A stretch of DNA of 64,000 nucleotides, taken from positions 2,092,171-2,156,170 of the forward strand of contig CANMZA010000001.1 of NCBI GenBank assembly GCA_947502305.1, written 5' to 3'. The notes under the pieces are model-generated. The model was not told the origin of the DNA, searched no databases, and worked only from the letters and a program-made list of their open reading frames with translations. Positions 27,497 through 40,294 of this stretch are shown in pieces (position 1 is the stretch's first letter; each line of letters opens with the position of its first letter). Source of the DNA: an uncultured Erythrobacter sp. GTDB lineage: Bacteria > Pseudomonadota > Alphaproteobacteria > Sphingomonadales > Sphingomonadaceae. Made by a program: the position numbers and the translations under genes.

Positions 27497-27904
27497 TCAT
27501 AGCTGATCGTTTTCCAATCCACGCGCCGCCCATAGCCCTATGCCGCCAAGCAATATCTCGATGAGAGCTTCACGCAGCGGTTGGAAGGCGAGTAGCTCTG
27601 CGCCTTCAATTGAAACAGCGGCAACTCTGCTAAATCCCACGCAGATAAAGATTGCTGCAGCGATCAGGCTTCGTTGGCTCGGAGAGAGGTTGATGCGACC
27701 TCCGAGAATTAAAACGCAGCCTATTCCTATCTCACCGCCTCCGATCATGGCGCGCATGGCCACGCGCGCAGATGGCTGGTCGAGCCCAATCGCATAATAG
27801 CTCATAATTTCCGGCTGAATGAGCGTTGCTATTCCGAGCGCGAGAAAAATGCAGCCCGCAAAAGAAGGGTAAACACGGCCCAGGATTCGATGAAGATGGC
27901 TCAT
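27497..27904 (-). CDS. DUF4345-like small membrane protein
   Basis: MSHLHRILGRVYPSFAGCIFLALGIATLIQPEIMSYYAIGLDQ...; start internal to ORF 27497..28459, coupled to the upstream gene. Confidence 0.65.
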   Translation of the reverse strand: MSHLHRILGRVYPSFAGCIFLALGIATLIQPEIMSYYAIGLDQPSARVAMRAMIGGGEIGIGCVLILGGRINLSPSQRSLIAAAIFICVGFSRVAAVSIEGAELLAFQPLREALIEILLGGIGLWAARGLENDQL

Positions 27905-28485
27905 CACAGAAACCGCCTGGTTTGGCGTTTGTAGTCCAGATAGTCCTGACCGTATTGCTGCTCCAACCATGGTTCCTCGAATACAGGGGCAAGCAAATAC
28001 ATGGCCGCCCAGAGCGCCAACAATATCAAGACAAGCAACGTGTTGGCGAGCAGGCCCCAACCAATCATGCCGACCCATGTTGCGACGTAAACAGGGTTCC
28101 TGCTTATCCTGAACCAACCTTCTGTTTTCAGGCCGTGCTTTTCGCCAAAGGCATTGCGCCAGCCCATCTGGAACGTGATCCAGAATGCGAGTGCAAAGCC
28201 GACAACCAACAGCACTAGGCCCACAGTATATTGGAGCACAGCATAAGCGGGAGCCACAGATGCAAAGTCGAGAAGGGAAAGCGCCAGCAATGGGTAAAGG
28301 AAAAGGCGAAACAGCGCCATGAAGGTGCGGTGCTGCCAACTGTCCCCTGAAGGGGGCGGGAAGAACTGAAACTTTCCGCTCAAGACTGCAAAAATGGAAA
28401 GCCCGATTATCGTGCAAATCGAGCTGGCCGCTAATCCGAACAAACTCCAAGACACCCATGAAGGCAGGTCAATCATGTGCAGCAC
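27904..28485 (-). CDS. Isoprenylcysteine carboxyl methyltransferase (ICMT)-like membrane protein 1
   Basis: WFRISRNPVYVATWVGMIGWGLL...EEPWLEQQYGQDYLDYKRQTRRFL. Confidence 0.88.
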   Translation of the reverse strand: MLHMIDLPSWVSWSLFGLAASSICTIIGLSIFAVLSGKFQFFPPPSGDSWQHRTFMALFRLFLYPLLALSLLDFASVAPAYAVLQYTVGLVLLVVGFALAFWITFQMGWRNAFGEKHGLKTEGWFRISRNPVYVATWVGMIGWGLLANTLLVLILLALWAAMYLLAPVFEEPWLEQQYGQDYLDYKRQTRRFL

Positions 28486-28487
28486 TC

Positions 28488-28979
28488 CTACAACCAGCGC
28501 CGCGTCTGTTTGCGATAGGCTGTAAATGCGCTTCCGAAATTCTGCTCCAGAACTCGCTCTTCAGGGATGATCTGGAGGAGCGTGATAGAGAGGGCGTAGA
28601 GAATTGGTCCGCTGAATGCTGCGAGGTTTTGGAGGGCCAAGGCTCCACCCACAAGCACGAGCAGCATACCTAGATACATCGGGTTTCTGGTAAAGCGATA
28701 GAGGCCTGTTGTGACCAGTTGCTCGGTTTGCTCAGGCGTAATCGGATTTACCGTTGTGTTCGCCTTCCCGAACGATCGAACTGCGAAGAAAAGCACTAGC
28801 GCTCCAGCCGCAATGACCGGAACTGATACCCAAACAAGAGGCACTGATTCGTAAGCAAGCGCGGGCAGGTTTGCCGCTAGAATGTAGCCGGCAAAGCCAT
28901 AGAACGCGAACTGCATCAGGGGCGGGAAATACAGCTTTTTCTGTTTCTTGGATCGCTCTGAAATCTGGGTTTGAGGCAT
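28488..28979 (-). CDS. Isoprenylcysteine carboxyl methyltransferase (ICMT)-like membrane protein 2
   Basis: LYRFTRNPMYLGMLLVLVGGAL...PEERVLEQNFGSAFTAYRKQTRRWL. Confidence 0.9.
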   Translation of the reverse strand: MPQTQISERSKKQKKLYFPPLMQFAFYGFAGYILAANLPALAYESVPLVWVSVPVIAAGALVLFFAVRSFGKANTTVNPITPEQTEQLVTTGLYRFTRNPMYLGMLLVLVGGALALQNLAAFSGPILYALSITLLQIIPEERVLEQNFGSAFTAYRKQTRRWL

Positions 28980-29011
28980 TTTTCGACTCGCTTGATTATG
29001 ATTCGAATCAA

Positions 29012-29042
29012 GTGATACAGTCTACAGCGACTGTAGAGGCAA
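29012..29042 (-). promoter_or_regulatory. MerR-type operator/promoter for the ICMT operon
   Basis: Minus strand TTGCCT-CTACAGTCGCTGTAGACTG-TATCAC: 19-nt spacer containing dyad CTACAG-TCG-CTGTAG. Confidence 0.75.
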
Positions 29043-29061
29043 GCGGGAAAAGCACATTCTT

Positions 29062-29502
29062 ATGAAACCGATGACAATTGGCCGTCTTTCAAGTGCGGCA
29101 AAGGTCAAAGTGACCACCATTCGATATTACGAAAGTATCGGCTTGATGGGCACGCCAGACCGTAGCGCAAGTGGGCAAAGGCTCTATAGCAGCGTCGATG
29201 TGGAACGCCTCTCATTTGTGAGGCATGCCCGCGAACTCGGCTTTTCAATGGACGCAATCAAAGACTTGATTGGATTGCAGACTGAACCAGACCAAGACTG
29301 CTCGGCAGTTGACACAATCGCTCAGAAGCAACTTGCCGAAGTTCAAAAGCGGCTGGCACAGCTAGAGGCTCTGGAACGCGAGCTGAAACGCATGATCGAA
29401 AATTGCCGGGGTGGTAAAGTTGGCGGGTGCCAAGTCATGGCGGCGATCAACGACCACTCTGAATGCGAGTCCGACAAGCATGAGCGTTTGAAACCGCTCT
29501 GA
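29062..29502 (+). CDS. MerR family transcriptional regulator (CadR/PbrR-like)
   Basis: TIGRLSSAAKVKVTTIRYYESIGLMGTPDRSASGQRLYSSVDVERLSFVRHARELGFSMDAIKDLI; Cys residues at DCSAVD, NCRGGKVGGC. Confidence 0.93.
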   Translation: MKPMTIGRLSSAAKVKVTTIRYYESIGLMGTPDRSASGQRLYSSVDVERLSFVRHARELGFSMDAIKDLIGLQTEPDQDCSAVDTIAQKQLAEVQKRLAQLEALERELKRMIENCRGGKVGGCQVMAAINDHSECESDKHERLKPL

Positions 29503-29788: not shown

Positions 29789-30346
29789 CTATGGGTTGCG
29801 CGGAGCTCGTGAGGAGGAGTGATATTGCACAATCTTCCAGCCGCCAGCATCGTGCCTCAATACCGACGTGGCGACACCTTCGCGTTCAATCACTCTGCCA
29901 TCGGTAAGTTCAATGCGGTAATTATAGGTCTCGTGGCCAAAGGCCATGTGCCCCATCCGCTTCACGCTCACTGTTGGCTCGCTGAATGTGAAGCTGGTGA
30001 TCGCGTCTAGTTCGGGAGCGAGGTGGTGCTCCATGTAATGACTAAAGCTGCCCTCATCTTTCCCATTCTCGAAGACAGCTGAATCTTCGGCAAACAATGC
30101 GATCATCGCGTCGGCATCGCGCGCAGTCAGGGATTCGCGATAGTCGACCAGCACAGCTTCGGCACCGGCCACATCATCCGCCATAGAGGCCGCATGTTCT
30201 GCGTGTTCTGAATGATTTGCCGCCTGTCCAGTGTGCCCAGCGTGCGCTTCGGCTTGTGCAGCTTCGGACTGTGCAATCGCAGCGGCCGGCATGATGGCCA
30301 ACGCCAGAGCGGACGAGAATAATGTGGGTGTTAGACGAAGCATCAA
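29789..30346 (-). CDS. DUF4440/SnoaL-like (NTF2 fold) secreted protein
   Basis: His-rich N-terminus, VLVDYRESLTARDADAMIALFAEDSAVFENG...VATSVLRHDAGGWKIVQYHSSSR. Confidence 0.82.
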   Translation of the reverse strand: MMLRLTPTLFSSALALAIMPAAAIAQSEAAQAEAHAGHTGQAANHSEHAEHAASMADDVAGAEAVLVDYRESLTARDADAMIALFAEDSAVFENGKDEGSFSHYMEHHLAPELDAITSFTFSEPTVSVKRMGHMAFGHETYNYRIELTDGRVIEREGVATSVLRHDAGGWKIVQYHSSSRAPRNP

Positions 30347-30366: not shown

Positions 30367-31467
30367 TTAAAACCAGAACCGGATGCCGATGACGTAATTC
30401 GTCACACTGGCGTCTTCGCCTGCTGCTCGCGCGTAGTCGGCGCTGTTGCCTATTTTCCATTCCTGATCGATCCCGATATAGGGTGCAAATTCGCGGGTGA
30501 TTTCATATCGCAGACGCACGCCCGCCTCGACCGCATCAATCCCGGCGCCAATGCCGAGTTCGGGAATATCCTGCGCCGATAGCGCTATCTCAGCGCGAGG
30601 CTGCACGATCAGACGCTGCGTGATCCGTTGATCAAGCTCACCTTCGATGCGTGCGGTCAAATCACCCTTGTTCGAAAGAAACGCCGCTGCGTCCACTTCG
30701 AAGAGATAGGGCATTAGTCCCTGGACACCGACCACGGCATGGGTTCGATTGGGGCCTGCCAAATCTTGGCGGACACCCGCCTGAAAGTCGAAAAATGGCG
30801 CGATGGCGCGGCTCCATAGGGCCTGAACTTCGGCAGATTCAATAGGCTCGCCGAAGCTGCCCTCGCCCTCGGATTTAAACCAGAATTTGTTTAGGTCTCC
30901 GCCGTAACTGCCTTGGATGTCCCACAGGTAACCGTCGCTACCTCGCCGGACGCGGTATTCCATCCGGTCACCTTGGAACCAGAAAGTTTTCTGGCTGCCT
31001 GTTTCGTTGATCAAAGCCTCACGGGAGACACGCATTTCTTCCACGCCCCAGATCGTCTCAGCAGCGCGCGCTGGCCCCGATCCCGCAGATGCTGGCGGAG
31101 GGGCGTTTGGTATCGGCATCGCCATCTCGCCATGCCCCATCGCGGAATGGTCGACCGGCTGCTGCGGCATTGCAGCATGATCCATTTGCGAATGATCTAC
31201 TGTGCCAGCGTCCGTCGCGGTCATCGACCCATGGTCCATTTGGGAATGGTCCATTTCGCTTGCCGCTTCAGGACCGTCCTCATCTGGAGAGCGGTTTGTC
31301 GCCGCGTGGCTCGCGGTATGTCCCTCCTCGACGGGAGCAACCGGCTCTTCATCCGTGTCAGAGGCTGCCGTTGTCGTTGGTTCCGACATTGGCATCGTAT
31401 GGTCGGCATGCTGCGCAATTGCAGGGCTAGCGGCTCCAAGCATCAAACAGACGATCAACGCCCTCAT
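30367..31467 (-). CDS. copB: Copper resistance protein B (outer membrane)
   Basis: MDHSQMDHGSM repeats then WGVEEMRVSREALINE...QGSYGGDLNKFWFKSEGEG...LRYEITREFAPYIGIDQEWKIGNSADYARAAGEDASVTNYVIGIRFWF. Confidence 0.94.
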   Translation of the reverse strand: MRALIVCLMLGAASPAIAQHADHTMPMSEPTTTAASDTDEEPVAPVEEGHTASHAATNRSPDEDGPEAASEMDHSQMDHGSMTATDAGTVDHSQMDHAAMPQQPVDHSAMGHGEMAMPIPNAPPPASAGSGPARAAETIWGVEEMRVSREALINETGSQKTFWFQGDRMEYRVRRGSDGYLWDIQGSYGGDLNKFWFKSEGEGSFGEPIESAEVQALWSRAIAPFFDFQAGVRQDLAGPNRTHAVVGVQGLMPYLFEVDAAAFLSNKGDLTARIEGELDQRITQRLIVQPRAEIALSAQDIPELGIGAGIDAVEAGVRLRYEITREFAPYIGIDQEWKIGNSADYARAAGEDASVTNYVIGIRFWF

Positions 31468-33272
31468 GCTCCTTCCTCCGGACCGGCAACGGTGACGATC
31501 TGGAACATGCCCGAATGCATGTGATACAAGAGGTGGCAGTGGAACGCCCAATCGCCGACTTCATCTGCCGTCAAATCGAAGGAGGCACTGCCGCCGGGCT
31601 GAACGATGACAGTGTGCTTCAAAGGCTGATTGCCATCATGGCCATTGACCAGTTCAAAGAAATGGCCGTGCAGGTGGATCGGGTGCGCCATCATCGTGTC
31701 GTTAACTAGCTTCACCCGGACGCGCTCATTATACGCAAAGCGGATAGGCTCGTCGCTGACTGCGGCAAATTTTTTGCCGTCAAACGACCACATATAGCGC
31801 TCCATGTTACCTGTGAGATGGATTTCCATCTGACGCGAAGGCATGCGCTCGTCGTTGTTCGGTGTGAGTGAGGCCAAATCTCTGTAATTTAGAACCTTGT
31901 GCGGCACTGTATCGAGGCCGATTCCAGGGTCACCCATCCGGTCAACTGGATTCATCGATACCATATCAACACCGGGGCCAACTTGTACGTCCGGCGGCAA
32001 TAACGATGTGTCGCGCATATTCATGCCGCCCATGGCCATTCCAGTTATGGCGTCATCGCTACCGGCATCCATATTTGAATGGTCAGTCGCGCCGGGCTGT
32101 GGCGGATTGCCGTGCCCCATTGCGCTGTGGTCCATGCTGCTGGTGTCGCTGCCGCCCCCATGATCCATGCCCATATCAGCCATCGCCAACAGCGGCGGAT
32201 CGCGCAGAGCCGGAACTGCTGCGCGTGCGCCGGGCCGGCTTGCCAATGTTGCCACGGCCATTCCGGACCGGTCCATAGATTCGGCCACAATCGTGTGCGC
32301 CTCGCCCGTTGGCTCGACGATTATGTCGTAGGTTTCTGCGGTGCCGATCTGGAACTCTTCAACTTCAACCGGTCGGACATTCTGGCCATCGGCACCAACC
32401 ACCCAGAACTTTACGCCCGGAATGCGGACATTGAAAAACGTCATCGCACTTCCGTTTATAACACGAATGCGAACGCGCTCGCCGCGATTAAACAGATATT
32501 CGAGGCCCTCCAATGGGCCGCGACCATTGGCAAGGTAGGTGTAGGTCGAGCCGGTAACGTCCAAAATATCGGTCGGCATCATCCGCATATTGGCCCACAT
32601 CCGTCGCTGCTCTCCTGTCAAAGGATAGTCATCGGTCAACGTGCGCTGCTGATAATTGAAGTAGCCTTCGCCGTTCTTCAGCTTCTCCATGATCGTATGC
32701 GGATGCATTGGCGTAAATTCAGACAATAGCAGGACGTAGTCGCGATCAGCCTGAACGGGATTGGGGCCTGCCGGTTCGACCACAATCGGACCGTAATGCC
32801 CGGCTTGTTCCTGAAGTCCTGAGTGGCTGTGCCACCAGTACGTTCCGGACTGACGCAGCGCAGGCATATCGTAGGTGAAGGTCTGGCCCGGTTTGATGCC
32901 GGGAAAGCTGACGCCCGGAACGCCGTCATACTGGAACGGCACCAGCAGGCCGTGCCAGTGAATCGAGCTGTCTTCGTCAAGGGTGTTGGTCACGTTGAGT
33001 TTGACCGCCTGCCCCTCTTTTAGGCGCACTAGCGGACCTGGCACGCTGCCATTGACTACCACGGTGTGACCGCTCCTGCCCTGAACCACTCGCATACCCT
33101 GACCGATAGTCAGGTCGATATTGGCACCGGAGACCTCGTCGAACCCTTGGCGTATCATTTCGCCATCCATGCTCGCACCTCGGGCCCACGCGGGCATTGC
33201 TGCGGCGAAACTGAAGATTCCGGCTGTGCAGGCACCTGCTGCAAGAAAATTTCGTCGGTCGAAAACGGGCAT
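31464..33272 (-). CDS. copA: Copper resistance multicopper oxidase (CopA/PcoA type)
   Basis: Tat signal FDRRNFLAAGA; SIHWHGLLVPFQYDGVPGVSFPGI, TYWWHSHSGLQEQAGHYGP, HPIHLHGHFFELVNG, AFHCHLLYHMHSGMFQ copper sites. Confidence 0.96.
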   Translation of the reverse strand: MPVFDRRNFLAAGACTAGIFSFAAAMPAWARGASMDGEMIRQGFDEVSGANIDLTIGQGMRVVQGRSGHTVVVNGSVPGPLVRLKEGQAVKLNVTNTLDEDSSIHWHGLLVPFQYDGVPGVSFPGIKPGQTFTYDMPALRQSGTYWWHSHSGLQEQAGHYGPIVVEPAGPNPVQADRDYVLLLSEFTPMHPHTIMEKLKNGEGYFNYQQRTLTDDYPLTGEQRRMWANMRMMPTDILDVTGSTYTYLANGRGPLEGLEYLFNRGERVRIRVINGSAMTFFNVRIPGVKFWVVGADGQNVRPVEVEEFQIGTAETYDIIVEPTGEAHTIVAESMDRSGMAVATLASRPGARAAVPALRDPPLLAMADMGMDHGGGSDTSSMDHSAMGHGNPPQPGATDHSNMDAGSDDAITGMAMGGMNMRDTSLLPPDVQVGPGVDMVSMNPVDRMGDPGIGLDTVPHKVLNYRDLASLTPNNDERMPSRQMEIHLTGNMERYMWSFDGKKFAAVSDEPIRFAYNERVRVKLVNDTMMAHPIHLHGHFFELVNGHDGNQPLKHTVIVQPGGSASFDLTADEVGDWAFHCHLLYHMHSGMFQIVTVAGPEEGA

Positions 33273-33303: not shown

Positions 33304-33331
33304 ATTACGCAGGTGGCTGGCCGTCCCCTCA
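33304..33331 (-). promoter_or_regulatory. Candidate ECF promoter of copAB
   Basis: TGAGGGGACGGCCAGCCACCTGCGTAAT on minus strand; the -35-like TGA overlaps the sigma-factor stop codon. Confidence 0.7.
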
Positions 33332-33889
33332 AAAATCTGGGATTTTTTCTCGTAACCGCTTGCGGGCGCGGTAGACGCGGGTTTCGATAGCCTTCTCCGT
33401 CACACCGAGCAGATCGGCAGCCTCGACTTGGCTGCGCCCATCAATGGCAACCAGCACCAGCGCCTCTCGCAATCTGACCGGAAGTCGTTCGATCTCTTTT
33501 TGCAGCGCCGCAAGCGTATTGCGGGTGACAGCGCTCGCCTCGGGGTCTGGGCGATCGTCAGCGATCACTATTTCGTCGAGCGAAGGAGCAATCCCGATCA
33601 GGCCCGCAGCCTTGCGTCGCCGCAGATTATCCCGGCATTTGTTGAGCACGCTGGTGGTGAGAAACGGGCCGACCGGACGTTCGGGATCAATCCTGTGCCG
33701 CGCCACCCAGACCGATGCCAGCGCATCTTGAACGGCGTCCTCCGCCTGCGAAGTGGAGCTCAGCATTCGGCGCGCCAGCATCAGCAAACGACCGGTGTGC
33801 TGTTTGGCAAGATGCCCGAAAGCAGTTTTGTCGCCAGCGACCACCCGCTCGATCAGTTGACGTTCTAAATGTGGATCAGCCCCTAGCAC
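33329..33889 (-). CDS. ECF RNA polymerase sigma factor (CnrH-like)
   Basis: AEDAVQDALASVWVARHRIDPERPVGPFLTTSVLNKCRDNLRRRK...LPVRLREALVLVAIDGRSQVEAADLLGVTEKAIETRVYRARKRLREK. Confidence 0.93.
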   Translation of the reverse strand: MLGADPHLERQLIERVVAGDKTAFGHLAKQHTGRLLMLARRMLSSTSQAEDAVQDALASVWVARHRIDPERPVGPFLTTSVLNKCRDNLRRRKAAGLIGIAPSLDEIVIADDRPDPEASAVTRNTLAALQKEIERLPVRLREALVLVAIDGRSQVEAADLLGVTEKAIETRVYRARKRLREKIPDF

Positions 33890-33895
33890 GTATGC

Positions 33896-34336
33896 TCATT
33901 CGCGCGGGTCGCGTGTGAGTGCGCCAGACACCTGTTGATCGAACTTTACCTGCTGCGCCGGGCTAAGGATGCTGCGCATTGCGAAAACATGCCGAATTGT
34001 CGCCTTCTGTAAGTCTCCCATCGCTGCATGCACCGCGTCAATGGCTGCGGCGACCTCGGGGCCGTATTGCTGCTCTTGCTCCATTGCCCGCGCCAACCGG
34101 GCATTAGCCGATCGTGACGCCAGTTCTAGCTGTTGCTGTTCCGCTGAAAACCTATTCTCTATCGCCTCTAGTTGCGCCTCTTGATCAGCGGTCAGGGTGA
34201 GCTCATTATGGACAAAGCTATGTAGTCCGCTCTCTTGCGGAGCGGTATTCCAATGGTCGGCAACGAGCGCACCAAGACAGCCTGCGAGGGCGGCCAGAAG
34301 TAATGCCAATACGATTTGAAAACGGGTCAACTTCAT
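33896..34336 (-). CDS. Periplasmic heavy-metal sensor (CnrX/NccX-like)
   Basis: N-terminal anchor, LTLTADQEAQLEAIENRFSAEQQQLELASRSANARLARAM...HAAMGDLQKATIRHVFAMRSILSPAQQVKFDQQV. Confidence 0.85.
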   Translation of the reverse strand: MKLTRFQIVLALLLAALAGCLGALVADHWNTAPQESGLHSFVHNELTLTADQEAQLEAIENRFSAEQQQLELASRSANARLARAMEQEQQYGPEVAAAIDAVHAAMGDLQKATIRHVFAMRSILSPAQQVKFDQQVSGALTRDPRE

Positions 34337-34617
34337 GGCTCGACGTGCAGCAATGTAGCAGGTGAAAGCTGATCGGTCATTCCCAGTTGATAGGTGCTGG
34401 CTTGTGCCGCGTCGCCCGGCAAAACGGTGCTGAAACCGGCACCCAAGCCGACGACAAACAACCCGAAAAACAGCATCAACCGATTCTTTTGATCGGCTCG
34501 TTCTTGGAGCTGCCCTGCCCGTTGCCAGACCTCATCGAAGAAACCGTCGGACACAGCCGCACCCGCTTGCCCACCAAGAGAGGCGAGTGATTTATCGAGC
34601 GAGGGTTCATTATGCAT
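34333..34617 (-). CDS. Single-TM protein, CnrY-like putative anti-sigma factor
   Basis: Cytoplasmic N-terminus, one TM (LMLFFGLFVVGLGAGFSTVL), position before X and sigma genes with 4-bp overlap. Confidence 0.65.
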   Translation of the reverse strand: MHNEPSLDKSLASLGGQAGAAVSDGFFDEVWQRAGQLQERADQKNRLMLFFGLFVVGLGAGFSTVLPGDAAQASTYQLGMTDQLSPATLLHVEP

Positions 34618-34644
34618 AATAGGTCTTCTTCATTTCTGACTGCT

Positions 34645-34672
34645 TATACGCAACCCAGCAGCTAAGCCCTCA
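34645..34672 (-). promoter_or_regulatory. Candidate ECF autoregulatory promoter of the cnrYXH-like operon
   Basis: TGAGGGCTTAGCTGCTGGGTTGCGTATA on minus strand. Confidence 0.65.
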
Positions 34673-34679
34673 ATTTTTT

Positions 34680-34707
34680 TGAGGGGGGACGGTTTCCTGT
34701 GCGTAAT
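34680..34707 (+). promoter_or_regulatory. Candidate ECF promoter of the DUF2231/methyltransferase/P-type ATPase operon
   Basis: TGAGGGGGGACGGTTTCCTGTGCGTAAT on plus strand. Confidence 0.65.
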
Positions 34708-34713
34708 GACACC

Positions 34714-35451
34714 ATGAACCACATTTTAAGACCCGTCCTTGCAGGCCTACTCGCCGCCCTTGTTCTAGCATCGCCATCGTTGGCGCACGAAGGGCACAAA
34801 CAGGACATGACCGACGCAGAAATGGTCCAGATGGAAGCCGAGATGGCTCAAATGGGCACTCACGAAGCGATCGACCAATCTCAATTGCCTGCCGAAACAG
34901 CGCAATCAGATGCCAAGACAGTGGTGACAATGCCGCACGGGGGCAATGGTCACGCTGGCGGCTCCGCGCTTGAGGCAGCGGCCACTCTATCCGCTGAACA
35001 AACGCTCGCAGCGCAAGTTGTTAAAAACCGGCTGACTTCTTCCAATGATTTACTTGGCCGCCTTCACCCTGTGGCAGCGCACTTTCCGATTGCGCTTTTG
35101 CTGGTGGCAGCTTTGGCTGAACTGGCGTTGATGATACGCCCCACCCTCGGGTTGCCCACGACGATCCGCTTTCTTGTCGCGAGTGGCGCAATCGGCGCAG
35201 TCGCCGCAGCCTTACTCGGCTGGTTTGCTGCTGGTTGGCGCCTGACCGACCGTTCTGAAACACTCGGCCTGCACCGCTGGAACGGCACAGCGATCGCTGT
35301 GATCAGCCTGATCGCATGGTGGTTTGCCATTCGTGGGGATAGCCGCCGAGGGCTGCGTGTCACGCTTGCCCTGCTCGCGGCTGCATTGCTTTTGCAGGGT
35401 TATCTCGGCGGCGAGATGGTGTTTGGCCCGAACCATATGGGCATTCGCTGA
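34714..35451 (+). CDS. DUF2231-like membrane protein
   Basis: Signal peptide, Met/His-rich segment, LGRLHPVAAHFPIALLLVAALAEL and GYLGGEMVFGPNHMGIR. ATG 34714 preferred over the GTG at 34699. Confidence 0.82.
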   Translation: MNHILRPVLAGLLAALVLASPSLAHEGHKQDMTDAEMVQMEAEMAQMGTHEAIDQSQLPAETAQSDAKTVVTMPHGGNGHAGGSALEAAATLSAEQTLAAQVVKNRLTSSNDLLGRLHPVAAHFPIALLLVAALAELALMIRPTLGLPTTIRFLVASGAIGAVAAALLGWFAAGWRLTDRSETLGLHRWNGTAIAVISLIAWWFAIRGDSRRGLRVTLALLAAALLLQGYLGGEMVFGPNHMGIR

Positions 35452-36137
35452 TGGGCCAAGCTTCTAACCTCGATGGCACGTCCAGCTTCACCCCGGCGCT
35501 TGGCAAGGCATGGCTCACGCCGCTTTACGACATCGCGATCCGTTTGCTTACGTCGGAAAGGGCTTGGCGCAATGCGTTGATCGACCACGCGGACGTGCAA
35601 CCTGGAGACCGCTTGATCGATGTTGGAAGCGGCACCGGAAGCCTTTTACTGGGGCTGAGGGATGCTTGCAGCGACGCAGAGCTTCTTGGCGTCGATCCCG
35701 ACGCACAGGTGCTTGAGATTGCTCGCCGCAAAGCGGACAGCGTGGCAAAACCGATCACTTGGCACAACGGGTTCCTAGACAGTCTAAAGGTCGACGCGGA
35801 TCGGCGACCGAACAAAATTGTTAGCAGCTTGGTGTTCCATCAAGTCCCGGTCGAGCAGAAGAAGGCCATGATCGACCAGATTTGGTCCCTTCTCGAACCG
35901 GGCGGGATGGTTCTGATCGCGGATTACATGCGGCAAGAAAAGCCGCTCATGCGTCGCTTATTCCGCGCGACAGTGCAGACACTTGATGGGGTCCCTGATA
36001 CCCAACCCAATGCGGATGGCTTGATGGAACGGCTCATTTCAGAGCGTTTCGAGCGCAGCGAACGCCTCGCAATTTTTGAAGCAGCGACCGGGGCTATTTC
36101 GCTCTGGCGCGGGTTCAAATCCGGTGCGCCGACATGA
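35451..36137 (+). CDS. Class I SAM-dependent methyltransferase
   Basis: LIDVGSGTGSLLLGLRDACSDAELLGVDPDAQVLEIAR. Confidence 0.9.
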   Translation: MGQASNLDGTSSFTPALGKAWLTPLYDIAIRLLTSERAWRNALIDHADVQPGDRLIDVGSGTGSLLLGLRDACSDAELLGVDPDAQVLEIARRKADSVAKPITWHNGFLDSLKVDADRRPNKIVSSLVFHQVPVEQKKAMIDQIWSLLEPGGMVLIADYMRQEKPLMRRLFRATVQTLDGVPDTQPNADGLMERLISERFERSERLAIFEAATGAISLWRGFKSGAPT

Positions 36138-36594: not shown

Positions 36595-38918
36595 GCATTT
36601 ACGCATGTCCGATGCACCCGGAAATCCAGCAAGATAATCCGGGCGATTGCCCGAAGTGCGGAATGCACCTCGTTCTCCAAACCGATGCCAATGATAATGC
36701 GACAGACTCGGCGCATTCGTGTCACAGCCATTCCGACCATGGCGGAGAACCAGCCTCTGACGATGGGCGTTATGACAATGTGCCCGCGGGCTACGATGGC
36801 ACGGTCTATACCTGCCCTATGCACCCTCAGGTGCGCGAGACAAGCATGGCATCATGCCCGATTTGCGGCATGGGTCTAGAGCTTGAATCCGCGACTATGG
36901 TGGAGGAAGGACCGAACCCAGAATTGGTCGATTTTACCCGGCGGTTCTGGATCGGGGCAATTCTGACCATTCCACTGCTGGTCCTGACCATGGGACCATT
37001 TGTGGGCCTTGGCGGTATTCGAGAAGCGATTGGCGAACGCACTACGCTATGGATCGAGTTTGCACTCGGCACGCCGGTGGTGTTGTGGTGCGGCTGGCCA
37101 TTCCTCGTGCGGGGCTGGAACTCGTTTCGCACCAGAAACCTCAATATGTTCTCGCTGATCGCGATGGGTGTGATGGCGGCTTGGCTATTCAGTATAGTTG
37201 CGGTCCTTGCGCCGGGTATTTTCCCGTCCGGATTCCGCGATCCAGAAGGCCATGTTGCGGTCTATTTTGAGGCTGCAGCGGTCATCGTGACTTTAGTACT
37301 GCTCGGCCAAGTCATGGAGCTGCGCGCGCGCGAAGGCACAGGCAAAGCCATCCGCGCCTTGCTTGACCTTGCTGCGAAGACGGCACGTGTCATCCGCCCG
37401 GATGGCAGCGAAGAGGAAATTGAGCTGGAGAACGTCGAGGTTGGTGACAAACTGCGCGTTCGCCCCGGCGAGAAAGTTCCGGTTGATGGCATCGTGATGG
37501 ATGGACGGTCATCCATCGATGAAAGCATGATCAGCGGTGAGCCTGTTCCGGTTGAGAAGGTACCGGGCGATCATGTAACAGGCGCGACAATTAACGGCAC
37601 CGGCAGCTTGGTAATCGAAGCAACCCGCGTCGGTTCGGACACGATGCTGGCACAAATAGTGGAAATGGTGGCGGCTGCTCAACGGTCGCGGGCACCGATA
37701 CAAAAATACGCCGACAAGGTCGCAGGCTATTTCGTTCCAGCCGTCATCGGGATCGCGGTGCTTGCCTTCATTGCGTGGGCGATATGGGGCCCGGCCCCGG
37801 CGCTCGCCTATGCGCTGATCGCTGCGGTTTCGGTGCTGATCATCGCCTGCCCTTGCTCGCTGGGTCTTGCCACGCCGATGTCGATCATGACGGCCACGGG
37901 TCGCGGCGCGCAGGCGGGCGTGCTGATCAAAAATGCCGAGGCACTCGAACGCTTCGAGACGATTGATACGCTGATCGTCGATAAGACCGGCACGCTGACA
38001 GAGGGCAAACCCCGCCTCGTCGCTGTCATGCCCGAGGATGGTCATGACGAGGCCGAAGTGCTGCGCCTCGCGGCATCGCTCGAACGCGGTTCCGAACACC
38101 CATTGGCAGATGCCATCGTGCGGGGGGCAGAAGAACGCGGAATTGCAATGGCCCGCGCAGACGACTTCGAGGCGATTACCGGCAAAGGCGTGCGAGGCAC
38201 GGTCGATGGCAAGCCGGTCGCTCTCGGCAACCGGGCGCTCATTACCGATATGGGCCTCGACGCATCATCTTTTGCGGCAAAGGCGAATGCTCGGCGCGAT
38301 GGGGGCGAGACGGTGATGTTCGTCGTATTGGATGGCGCAATTGCCGGTCTGGTCAGCGTGGCCGACCCGGTAAAGGAAACCACCCCAGCGGCGCTGAAGG
38401 AACTGCACGCGCTCGGCCTGCGTATCATCATGGCCACCGGCGACAATGAGCGGACTGCCAAGGCCGTTGCGGCACGGCTTGGCATCGATGAGATCCGTGC
38501 CGACGTCTTGCCCGAAGACAAGGCGCGCATTGTCCGAGAGCTGCAGGCAAGCGGAGCAAAAGTCGCCATGGCCGGCGACGGGGTCAACGATGCGCCAGCG
38601 CTCGCACAGGCCGATGTCGGCATCGCTATGGGCACCGGCGCAGATGTCGCGATCGAAAGCGCAGGTATTACCCTAGTTGGCGGCAACTTGGACGGCATCG
38701 TCCGGGCACGCCGTCTCGCACGAGCGACCATGAGCAATATCCGTCAAAACCTGTTCTTCGCCTTGATCTACAATTCAGCAGGAGTGCCGGTCGCAGCAGG
38801 GTTGCTCTATCCCTTCTTCGGTATCCTGATCAGCCCCATGTTTGCTGCGTTCGCGATGAGTGCATCCTCCATCTCCGTAGTGCTCAATTCACTGCGCCTG
38901 CGGACAGCCAAGCTATGA
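36591..38918 (+). CDS. Heavy-metal (copper/silver) translocating P-type ATPase
   Basis: Two YxCPMHP...CPxCGM metal-binding motifs, CPC ([13 protein letters not shown]), [32 protein letters not shown] start overlapping the upstream TGA is preferred to ORF start 36450. Confidence 0.95.
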
Positions 38919-40294
38919 GCGATTTAGGGCACGAGAGCCATAGCTCGCATGGAGATGATGAAGGCAGCGACAAAGAGAGGATAAGCCTCGCCGGGGCCGT
39001 TGCGATGGGCACCGGGGTTATGATCGGTGCAGGCATATTCGCGCTCACCGGCCAGATCGCCGAGTTGGCTGGTCCGCTGTTTCCGCTATCTTTCGTCGTT
39101 GGCGCGATGGTCACGGCGTTGGCTGCCTATAGCTACATCAAGGTATCAAATGCCTGGCCGTCATCCGGCGGGATCGCGATGATCCTGCAAAAAGCATACG
39201 GGCCGGGTGTGGTGGCGGCATCTGCATCGCTGCTCATGGCGTTATCGATGGTCATCAACGAAAGTCTCGTCGCAAGAACCTTTGCCACCTATGCGCTCCG
39301 TCCGTTCGGGTTGGAGGAGAATGCCCTCCTGCTGTCGATCCTTGCGCTCGCATTGATTGTGTTTGCCTATTTCGTGAATGCGTCGGGCAACCGGTCTGTC
39401 AGCGGATTTTCGTTGGTCATGTCGGTTATCAAGGTTGGCGGGATTGCTGTGTTCGCGGTGGCCGCCATTTGGGCTAGCGGCTTTTTCTCCGGGGCATTTT
39501 CTGAAGGGACCTCGCTCACCAGCGGCGAGGCTTTCCTTGCATCAGTTGCCTTCTCGATATTGGCCTTCAAGGGCTTCACAACCATTACCAATAGCGGCGG
39601 CGACATAGTCGATCCGCACCGCAATGTCGGACGCACGATCATAATTTCGATCGGAATATGCGTTGTCACATATCTGCTGGTCGCACTCGCTGTTGGATCG
39701 AGCCTGAGCATCGGTGAGATTGCTGCGGCGAAAGACTATTCGCTGGCAGCAGCGGCACGGCCTGCGCTTGGCGAAATTGGCTTCTATTTCACGATCGTCA
39801 TTGCATTGGCGGCGACCACTTCGGGCGTGATTGCTAGCGTCTTCGCCGTTTCTCGCATGTTGGCGATGCTGACTAAGATGAAGATGATACCGCACAGCCA
39901 CTTTGGGATGAGCGGCAGCATCCGAAGCCACATGCTGATCTATACCGTGGTAGTGGCTGGCGCTCTTGCCGTATTGTTCGACCTTTCAAGGATCGCTGCG
40001 CTAGGCGCGTTTTTCTATCTCGTTATGGACATGTTGGTGCATTGGGGCGTGTATCGAAGCCTGCGCCACGAGGTTGGCGCCAAGGCTTCCGTTTTGCTCA
40101 CCGCCTTGGCGGCGGACGGCGTAATTCTGACAGCATTTACTTTGGCCAAGCTACGCACTGACCCAATAATCGTTCTTTACGCAGCGACCGGAATTGCATT
40201 TGTGTTCGCCGCAGAATGGTTTTTTCTTTCGAGAAGGGAACCGGAAGCCGGGACGGACCACGAAACGGAAAATCAAGATACCGGGTTGTGGTAG
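38915..40294 (+). CDS. APC family amino acid permease-like transporter
   Basis: [52 protein letters not shown]; start overlaps ATPase stop. Confidence 0.9.

Follow-up and report, generated by a model that had tools for sequence, protein, structure and literature searches.

Results

Genes and motif sites of the locus

The genes and motif sites of the locus are compiled in Table 1. The window, to which these coordinates refer, is the whole stretch of 64 kb that was analysed. In the PDB, the sigma factor found its best match in CnrH (4cxf, E 1e-23), followed by SigW (1e-14), while the sensor matched NccX (2e-20) and CnrX (1e-17). In a tree, the sigma factor of the window was placed inside a supported clade of copper-locus orthologues, with support that does not reach the deeper link to CnrH. 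Searches of Pfam and NCBIfam gave no match for the 94-aa CnrY-like protein and no family for the 91-aa membrane protein. A counterpart of the APC-type permease is annotated as 'APC family permease' on a Novosphingobium plasmid harboring a like cluster. The neighboring genes in related loci are consistently of copper type, and relatives additionally possess CopC/CopD, CueR and DUF411. This gene content supports the original prediction of a regulon for copper genes.

Table 1. Genes and predicted promoter sites of the locus (positions in the window)
Feature	Position	Strand	Basis and remarks
Presumably SnoaL-like protein with signal peptide, after copB	29789..30346	-	Homologue behind copB in many related loci
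CopB	30367..31479	-	Pfam CopB, 3e-85 with the longer ORF 30367-31551
CopA, copper-resistance multicopper oxidase	31464..33272	-	TIGR01480, 761 bits (cut-off 479)
Putative promoter (a), TGAGGG-N15-GCGTAA	33305..33331	-	Exact match; same site in almost every orthologous locus that has copA
Predicted target of (a): copA-copB		-	Predicted start 33297, leader ~25 nt; analogy with cnrYp and cnrCp
ECF sigma factor of CnrH type, 186 aa	33329..33889	-	Sigma70 regions 2 and 4
CnrX-like periplasmic metal sensor, 146 aa	33896..34336	-	Pfam Metal_resist; PDB matches
Putative CnrY-like anti-sigma factor, 94 aa	34333..34617	-	Position; 30-49% identical to its counterparts in related loci
Putative promoter (b), TGAGGG-N15-GCGTAT	34646..34672	-	Exact match; conserved upstream of the cnrY-like gene
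Predicted target of (b): cnrY-cnrX-sigma (autoregulation)		-	Predicted start 34638, leader ~21 nt
Putative promoter (c), TGAGGG-N15-GCGTAA	34680..34706	+	Exact match
Predicted target of (c): divergent DUF2231 operon		+	Predicted start 34714 (A of the ATG)
DUF2231 membrane protein, His/Met-rich N-terminal part	34714..35451	+	Pfam DUF2231
SAM-dependent methyltransferase	35451..36137	+	Pfam Methyltransf_25
Small membrane protein, 91 aa	36319..36594	+	Conserved in the cluster
Copper-type P1B ATPase, HMBD motifs	36612..38918	+	TIGR01511, 592 bits (cut-off 397); HMBD
APC-type permease, final gene of the divergent operon	38915..40294	+	Synteny in related loci

The original prediction had described three copies of a motif in which TGAGGG and GCGTA are separated by exactly 15 nt, each copy being correctly oriented to its downstream gene and an ECF sigma gene lying among them. 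A motif scan of the window confirmed this arrangement. The genome-wide scan that had been proposed as a check disclosed the same three exact sites and none else on the 3.25 Mb genome, on which the pattern read backwards matched once. By calculation from the 11 fixed bases and W, approximately 0.8 exact matches per genome and 0.015 per window are expected by chance. Site (a), on the copA side, shares bases with the sigma stop codon, and sites (b) and (c) occupy the interval between the cnrY-like and DUF2231 genes in a head-to-head arrangement. The two copies said to follow T-runs are (a) and (c); (b) is preceded by an A-run. As had been noted before, the window scan revealed no further exact copies at the cus, czc and ICMT operons. 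The region downstream of the copper operon (27904-29502) contains two isoprenylcysteine carboxylmethyltransferase-like genes beside a gene for a MerR-type regulator, and is devoid of an exact motif copy. Relaxed matching (one or two mismatches) in the window and genome was discarded as uninformative, its yield being at chance level. The genome harbors 22 matches with one mismatch, which are scattered as by chance, and thus the exact sites alone are informative.

Conservation of the motif among relatives

Altogether, 72 orthologous loci were compared, whose sigma factors showed identities of 36-65% and in which the gene order was largely kept. In approximately 70 of them, the motif occurred at the same three places, i.e., before cnrY, where the sigma gene adjoins copA, and ahead of the divergent operon. 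When sites with up to three mismatches were scored, exact copies made up 42 of 70 sites at cnrY, 45 of 66 at copA and 29 of 69 at the divergent operon. The consensus of 153 unique sites consists of an A/T-rich stretch (T at -1 in 69% and at -2 in 62%, counted from TGAGGG), TGAGGG, 15 nt and GCGTA(T/A) with a nearly invariant CGTA; because this set was confined to sites with at most two mismatches, the logo is biased in favor of the query. With the first two bases of the -35 block relaxed, the spacing to CGTA was 16 nt in 65, 61 and 63 loci for the three site classes, the shuffled expectation for any one spacing being less than 0.1. The pairwise identity of the spacers was 0.30-0.35 versus 0.87-0.91 for the motif, indicating that the motif and not the surrounding DNA is conserved.

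Some loci harbor additional copies. A fourth one was detected before a gene for a Met/His-rich periplasmic protein, approximately 5.9-6.1 kb downstream of the sigma start (L053, L102-L104, L106, L108-L112, L114 and L115). Loci L088-L099 contain a further copy at approximately 5.2 kb, which in several of them precedes a second DUF2231 gene.

Co-occurrence of the motif and the sigma gene

To relate the motif to the sigma gene at the level of genomes, 301 genomes of the family were surveyed and divided into 134 sigma-positive (E up to 1e-20) and 167 sigma-negative ones. The former contained 370 exact sites (mean 2.76 per genome) versus 47 in the latter (mean 0.28). Reversed-pattern controls gave 36 and 29 matches, respectively, corresponding to 0.17-0.27 per genome, and the sigma-negative mean is close to these values. 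Nine sigma-positive genomes had no exact copy, several of them possessing copies with one or two mismatches. Seven sigma-negative genomes containing at least two copies were examined singly. The sigma reading is fragmented in one of them (G008) and cut short beside the motif in another (G099). In G042 (locus L284, contig C31, 5587-5672), the motif pair, the CnrY-like gene and copA are kept, and neither sigma nor sensor was found between them; it is possible that sigma was lost there and the promoters retained. The remaining four genomes contain isolated copies.

We also used the head-to-head motif pair as the sole query in a scan of GTDB contigs, by which at least 119 stretches representing at least 80 loci (L123-L202) were found. 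Among the matches listed, 53 loci had a flank of at least 1.1 kb on each side; sigma and sensor were located within 1.2 kb in 52 of these and copA within 2.8 kb in 45. On its own, the head-to-head pair can serve as a search tag for the system. The records among the matches listed were mostly titled Sphingomonadales, some belonged to Caulobacterales and Hyphomonadaceae, and two were Verrucomicrobiota MAGs, whose taxonomic assignment needs caution as these records are MAG contigs. In both MAGs, the pair is located between a methyltransferase-like gene and the gene of a Met-rich protein, a third copy of the motif lies ahead of a pair of CusC/CusB-like genes, and the cnrYXH-type operon of each genome carries a motif copy with one mismatch. 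Treating the two loci (L163 and L158) as chance matches was rejected, since both are metal loci, and their genomes possess a cnrYXH-type operon as well. Across the Verrucomicrobiota MAG loci L158, L163, L270, L272 and L273, the motif was observed at the methyltransferase-like gene, the Cus-type efflux pair and the cnrYXH-type operon.

Predicted transcription start sites

On pMOL28, CAAGGG-N17-CGTAT is situated before cnrY and CGAGGG-N17-CGTAT before cnrC. The transcripts of cnrYp and cnrCp of Cupriavidus metallidurans start 24 nt ahead of cnrY and 25 nt ahead of cnrC (PMC9045368), which is 8 nt after CGTAT. Transfer of this distance to the window gave the predicted starts listed in Table 1. 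As the one at site (c) coincides with the A of the DUF2231 start codon, this mRNA is predicted to be leaderless. Of 23 loci in which DUF2231 comes first, 11 have the ATG at a distance of 7-8 nt downstream of the -10 block (three of these loci being nearly identical), and in 13 loci the first ATG opening the copA frame lies 8-9 nt after this block. Leaderless or nearly leaderless mRNAs may thus be common in this system. A plasmid of Caulobacter sp. FWC26 (L279, 6189-6216) contains TGCGGG-N17-CGTAT before an operon of the CnrYXH type, with the same spacing as in C. metallidurans.

Metal ligands of the sensor

An alignment of 148 sensors revealed that the ligand positions H39, H43, E60 and H116 are kept in all sequences and M120 in 146 of them. 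These residues of the window sensor align with H42, H46, E63, H119 and M123 of CnrX, the first four of which we take to be metal ligands. M123 is a ligand as well (PMC7689651). H103 is shared by all sensors with two exceptions, CnrX and a sensor protein from a Ralstonia RND locus, which have E at this position. M106 occurs in 143 sensors, and CnrX and the Ralstonia protein have A instead. According to the PDB match, NccX also has E and A at the two positions. H103 and M106 are candidate residues for the discrimination of copper and nickel, a link to copper being hypothetical because the alignment contains only two nickel-type sequences.

Discussion

A probable membrane signalling module with copper-resistance genes as targets

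Taken together, the locus very likely encodes a membrane signalling module of the CnrYXH type that controls copper-resistance genes through sigma acting at three promoters. What the sequences establish are the sites with their conservation and their co-occurrence with sigma, as well as homology for sigma, the sensor and the metal ligands of the latter. Regarding the three promoters, the data support recognition by the local CnrH-type sigma factor, as had been proposed when the motif was designated its cognate promoter. This assumption was corroborated by the positional conservation in approximately 70 loci, the fixed spacing along with unconserved spacers, the co-occurrence of motif and sigma gene in genomes, the pair-only scan, which found the adjoining sigma, and the mapped CnrH promoters of C. 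metallidurans, which carry this motif with a spacer longer by one base. Since other ECF sigma factors occur in such genomes, one of these could also recognize the motif. We judge the promoter set to be real, and the ECF sigma factor probably autoregulates its own operon.

In the proposed mechanism, the CnrX-like sensor would bind metal, most likely copper, in the periplasm, whereupon the putative CnrY-like anti-sigma factor would let go of the CnrH-type ECF sigma factor. The freed sigma would guide RNA polymerase to TGAGGG-N16-CGTA(A/T) promoters. In this genome, it would thereby activate three outputs, namely copAB, the divergent operon for DUF2231, methyltransferase and copper ATPase and, by positive autoregulation, the operon encoding sigma itself. 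Copper is probably the activating signal; because CnrX and NccX sense nickel and cobalt, this part of the model is drawn from the gene context.

The same sigma regulon might respond to another signal (nickel, cobalt or zinc) or to general envelope metal stress, the copper genes being part of a broad response. We regard this as unlikely, albeit worth consideration: CnrX and NccX, which are the closest characterized sensors, come from nickel/cobalt systems, all five CnrX ligands are kept, and copper induces the cnr cluster of C. metallidurans itself, so that cross-response does occur (PMC7563307). However, the neighbors are consistently copper genes, from CopA, CopB and the copper ATPase to the CopC/CopD, CueR and DUF411 of relatives, and the sensors of copper-type loci have H103 in place of the E found in CnrX and the Ralstonia RND-locus sensor. 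Much less probable is that the motif is an operator for a repressor or activator, the head-to-head pair being a single palindromic operator. Sites (b) and (c) do form an inverted repeat and MerR/CueR-type genes are situated near several clusters, but site (a) stands alone, pointing towards copA, and the distance between the head-to-head copies varies among loci, unlike in a fixed operator. Moreover, the fixed 15-nt spacing, the CGTA-type -10 block, the constant distance to the start codon and the match to CnrH promoters fit a promoter. A chance resemblance or local duplication without regulatory role, conceivable in principle for three short sites within 1.4 kb, is hardly credible in view of unrelated spacers with a kept motif, the conservation in approximately 70 loci and the pair-only scan.

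The preferred reading, a sigma-driven copper module, is that of a new, copper-linked CnrYXH branch having a promoter spacing and a sensor signature (H103/M106) of its own. We see an even chance that this copper-dedicated branch, in which the promoters are spaced by 16 nt and H103/M106 retune the sensor, is a main copper switch in many Sphingomonadaceae and Caulobacterales and reaches into Verrucomicrobiota. Bacterial copper control is usually credited to CueR, CsoR, CusRS/CopRS or CorE. The present sequences suggest that environmental Alphaproteobacteria widely use another route, in which a periplasmic sensor would free an ECF sigma factor. The regulon is tiny and can be fully enumerated, and it offers exact predicted starts and one mRNA predicted to be leaderless.

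Comparison with known systems

Our literature search yielded no paper in which a CnrH-type sigma factor controls copAB. Motifs have been published for ECF sigma factors at the group level (PMC3817407), possibly including one for this group. CorE of Myxococcus xanthus, named as the copper ECF sigma factor in a paper of 2023, controls a multicopper oxidase and a copper ATPase (PMC10141476) and resembles the sigma factor of the window in these targets. However, CorE senses copper itself by a Cys-rich C-terminal extension and without control by an anti-sigma factor, whereas the 186-aa protein of the window ends with RKRLREKIPDF, lacks such an extension and is encoded beside genes for an anti-sigma-like protein and a sensor. 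We know of no CnrX-type sensor for SigF of Caulobacter crescentus. SigF is similar in being an alphaproteobacterial ECF sigma factor with a role in the heavy-metal response (PMC3511200). The gene for the copper-linked ECF sigma factor SigAb of Acinetobacter baumannii shares its operon with two genes that have anti-sigma activity (PMC12153292). These partner genes are located downstream of the sigma gene, whereas those in the window lie upstream, and metal-resistance genes belong to the indirect regulon of SigAb.

The closest likeness is to CnrYXH, encoded on pMOL28 of C. metallidurans, and to NccYXH, for which release of sigma driven by metal has been described in the case of CnrX/CnrH (PMC7689651). 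Shared features are the gene order, with a putative anti-sigma gene in the window placed before those for sensor and sigma, the best match of the sigma factor to CnrH, a sensor keeping all five metal ligands of CnrX, an apparently autoregulated operon with a promoter at the junction of sigma and target gene, and a single motif family with CGTA(T) at -10. The systems differ in their targets, which in the window are copAB and the divergent copper operon and in cnr the nickel/cobalt RND efflux pump CnrCBA; this pump is what defines cnr as a determinant rather than its mode of signalling. Further differences are the anti-sigma-like protein of the window, which fits no Pfam or NCBIfam model, the sensor residues H103/M106 instead of the E/A of CnrX, the -35 sequence TGAGGG instead of C(A/G)AGGG, and a spacing to CGTA of 16 instead of 17 nt. 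Being only one spacer base apart from CnrH, this sigma/promoter pair could show how spacing specificity evolves.
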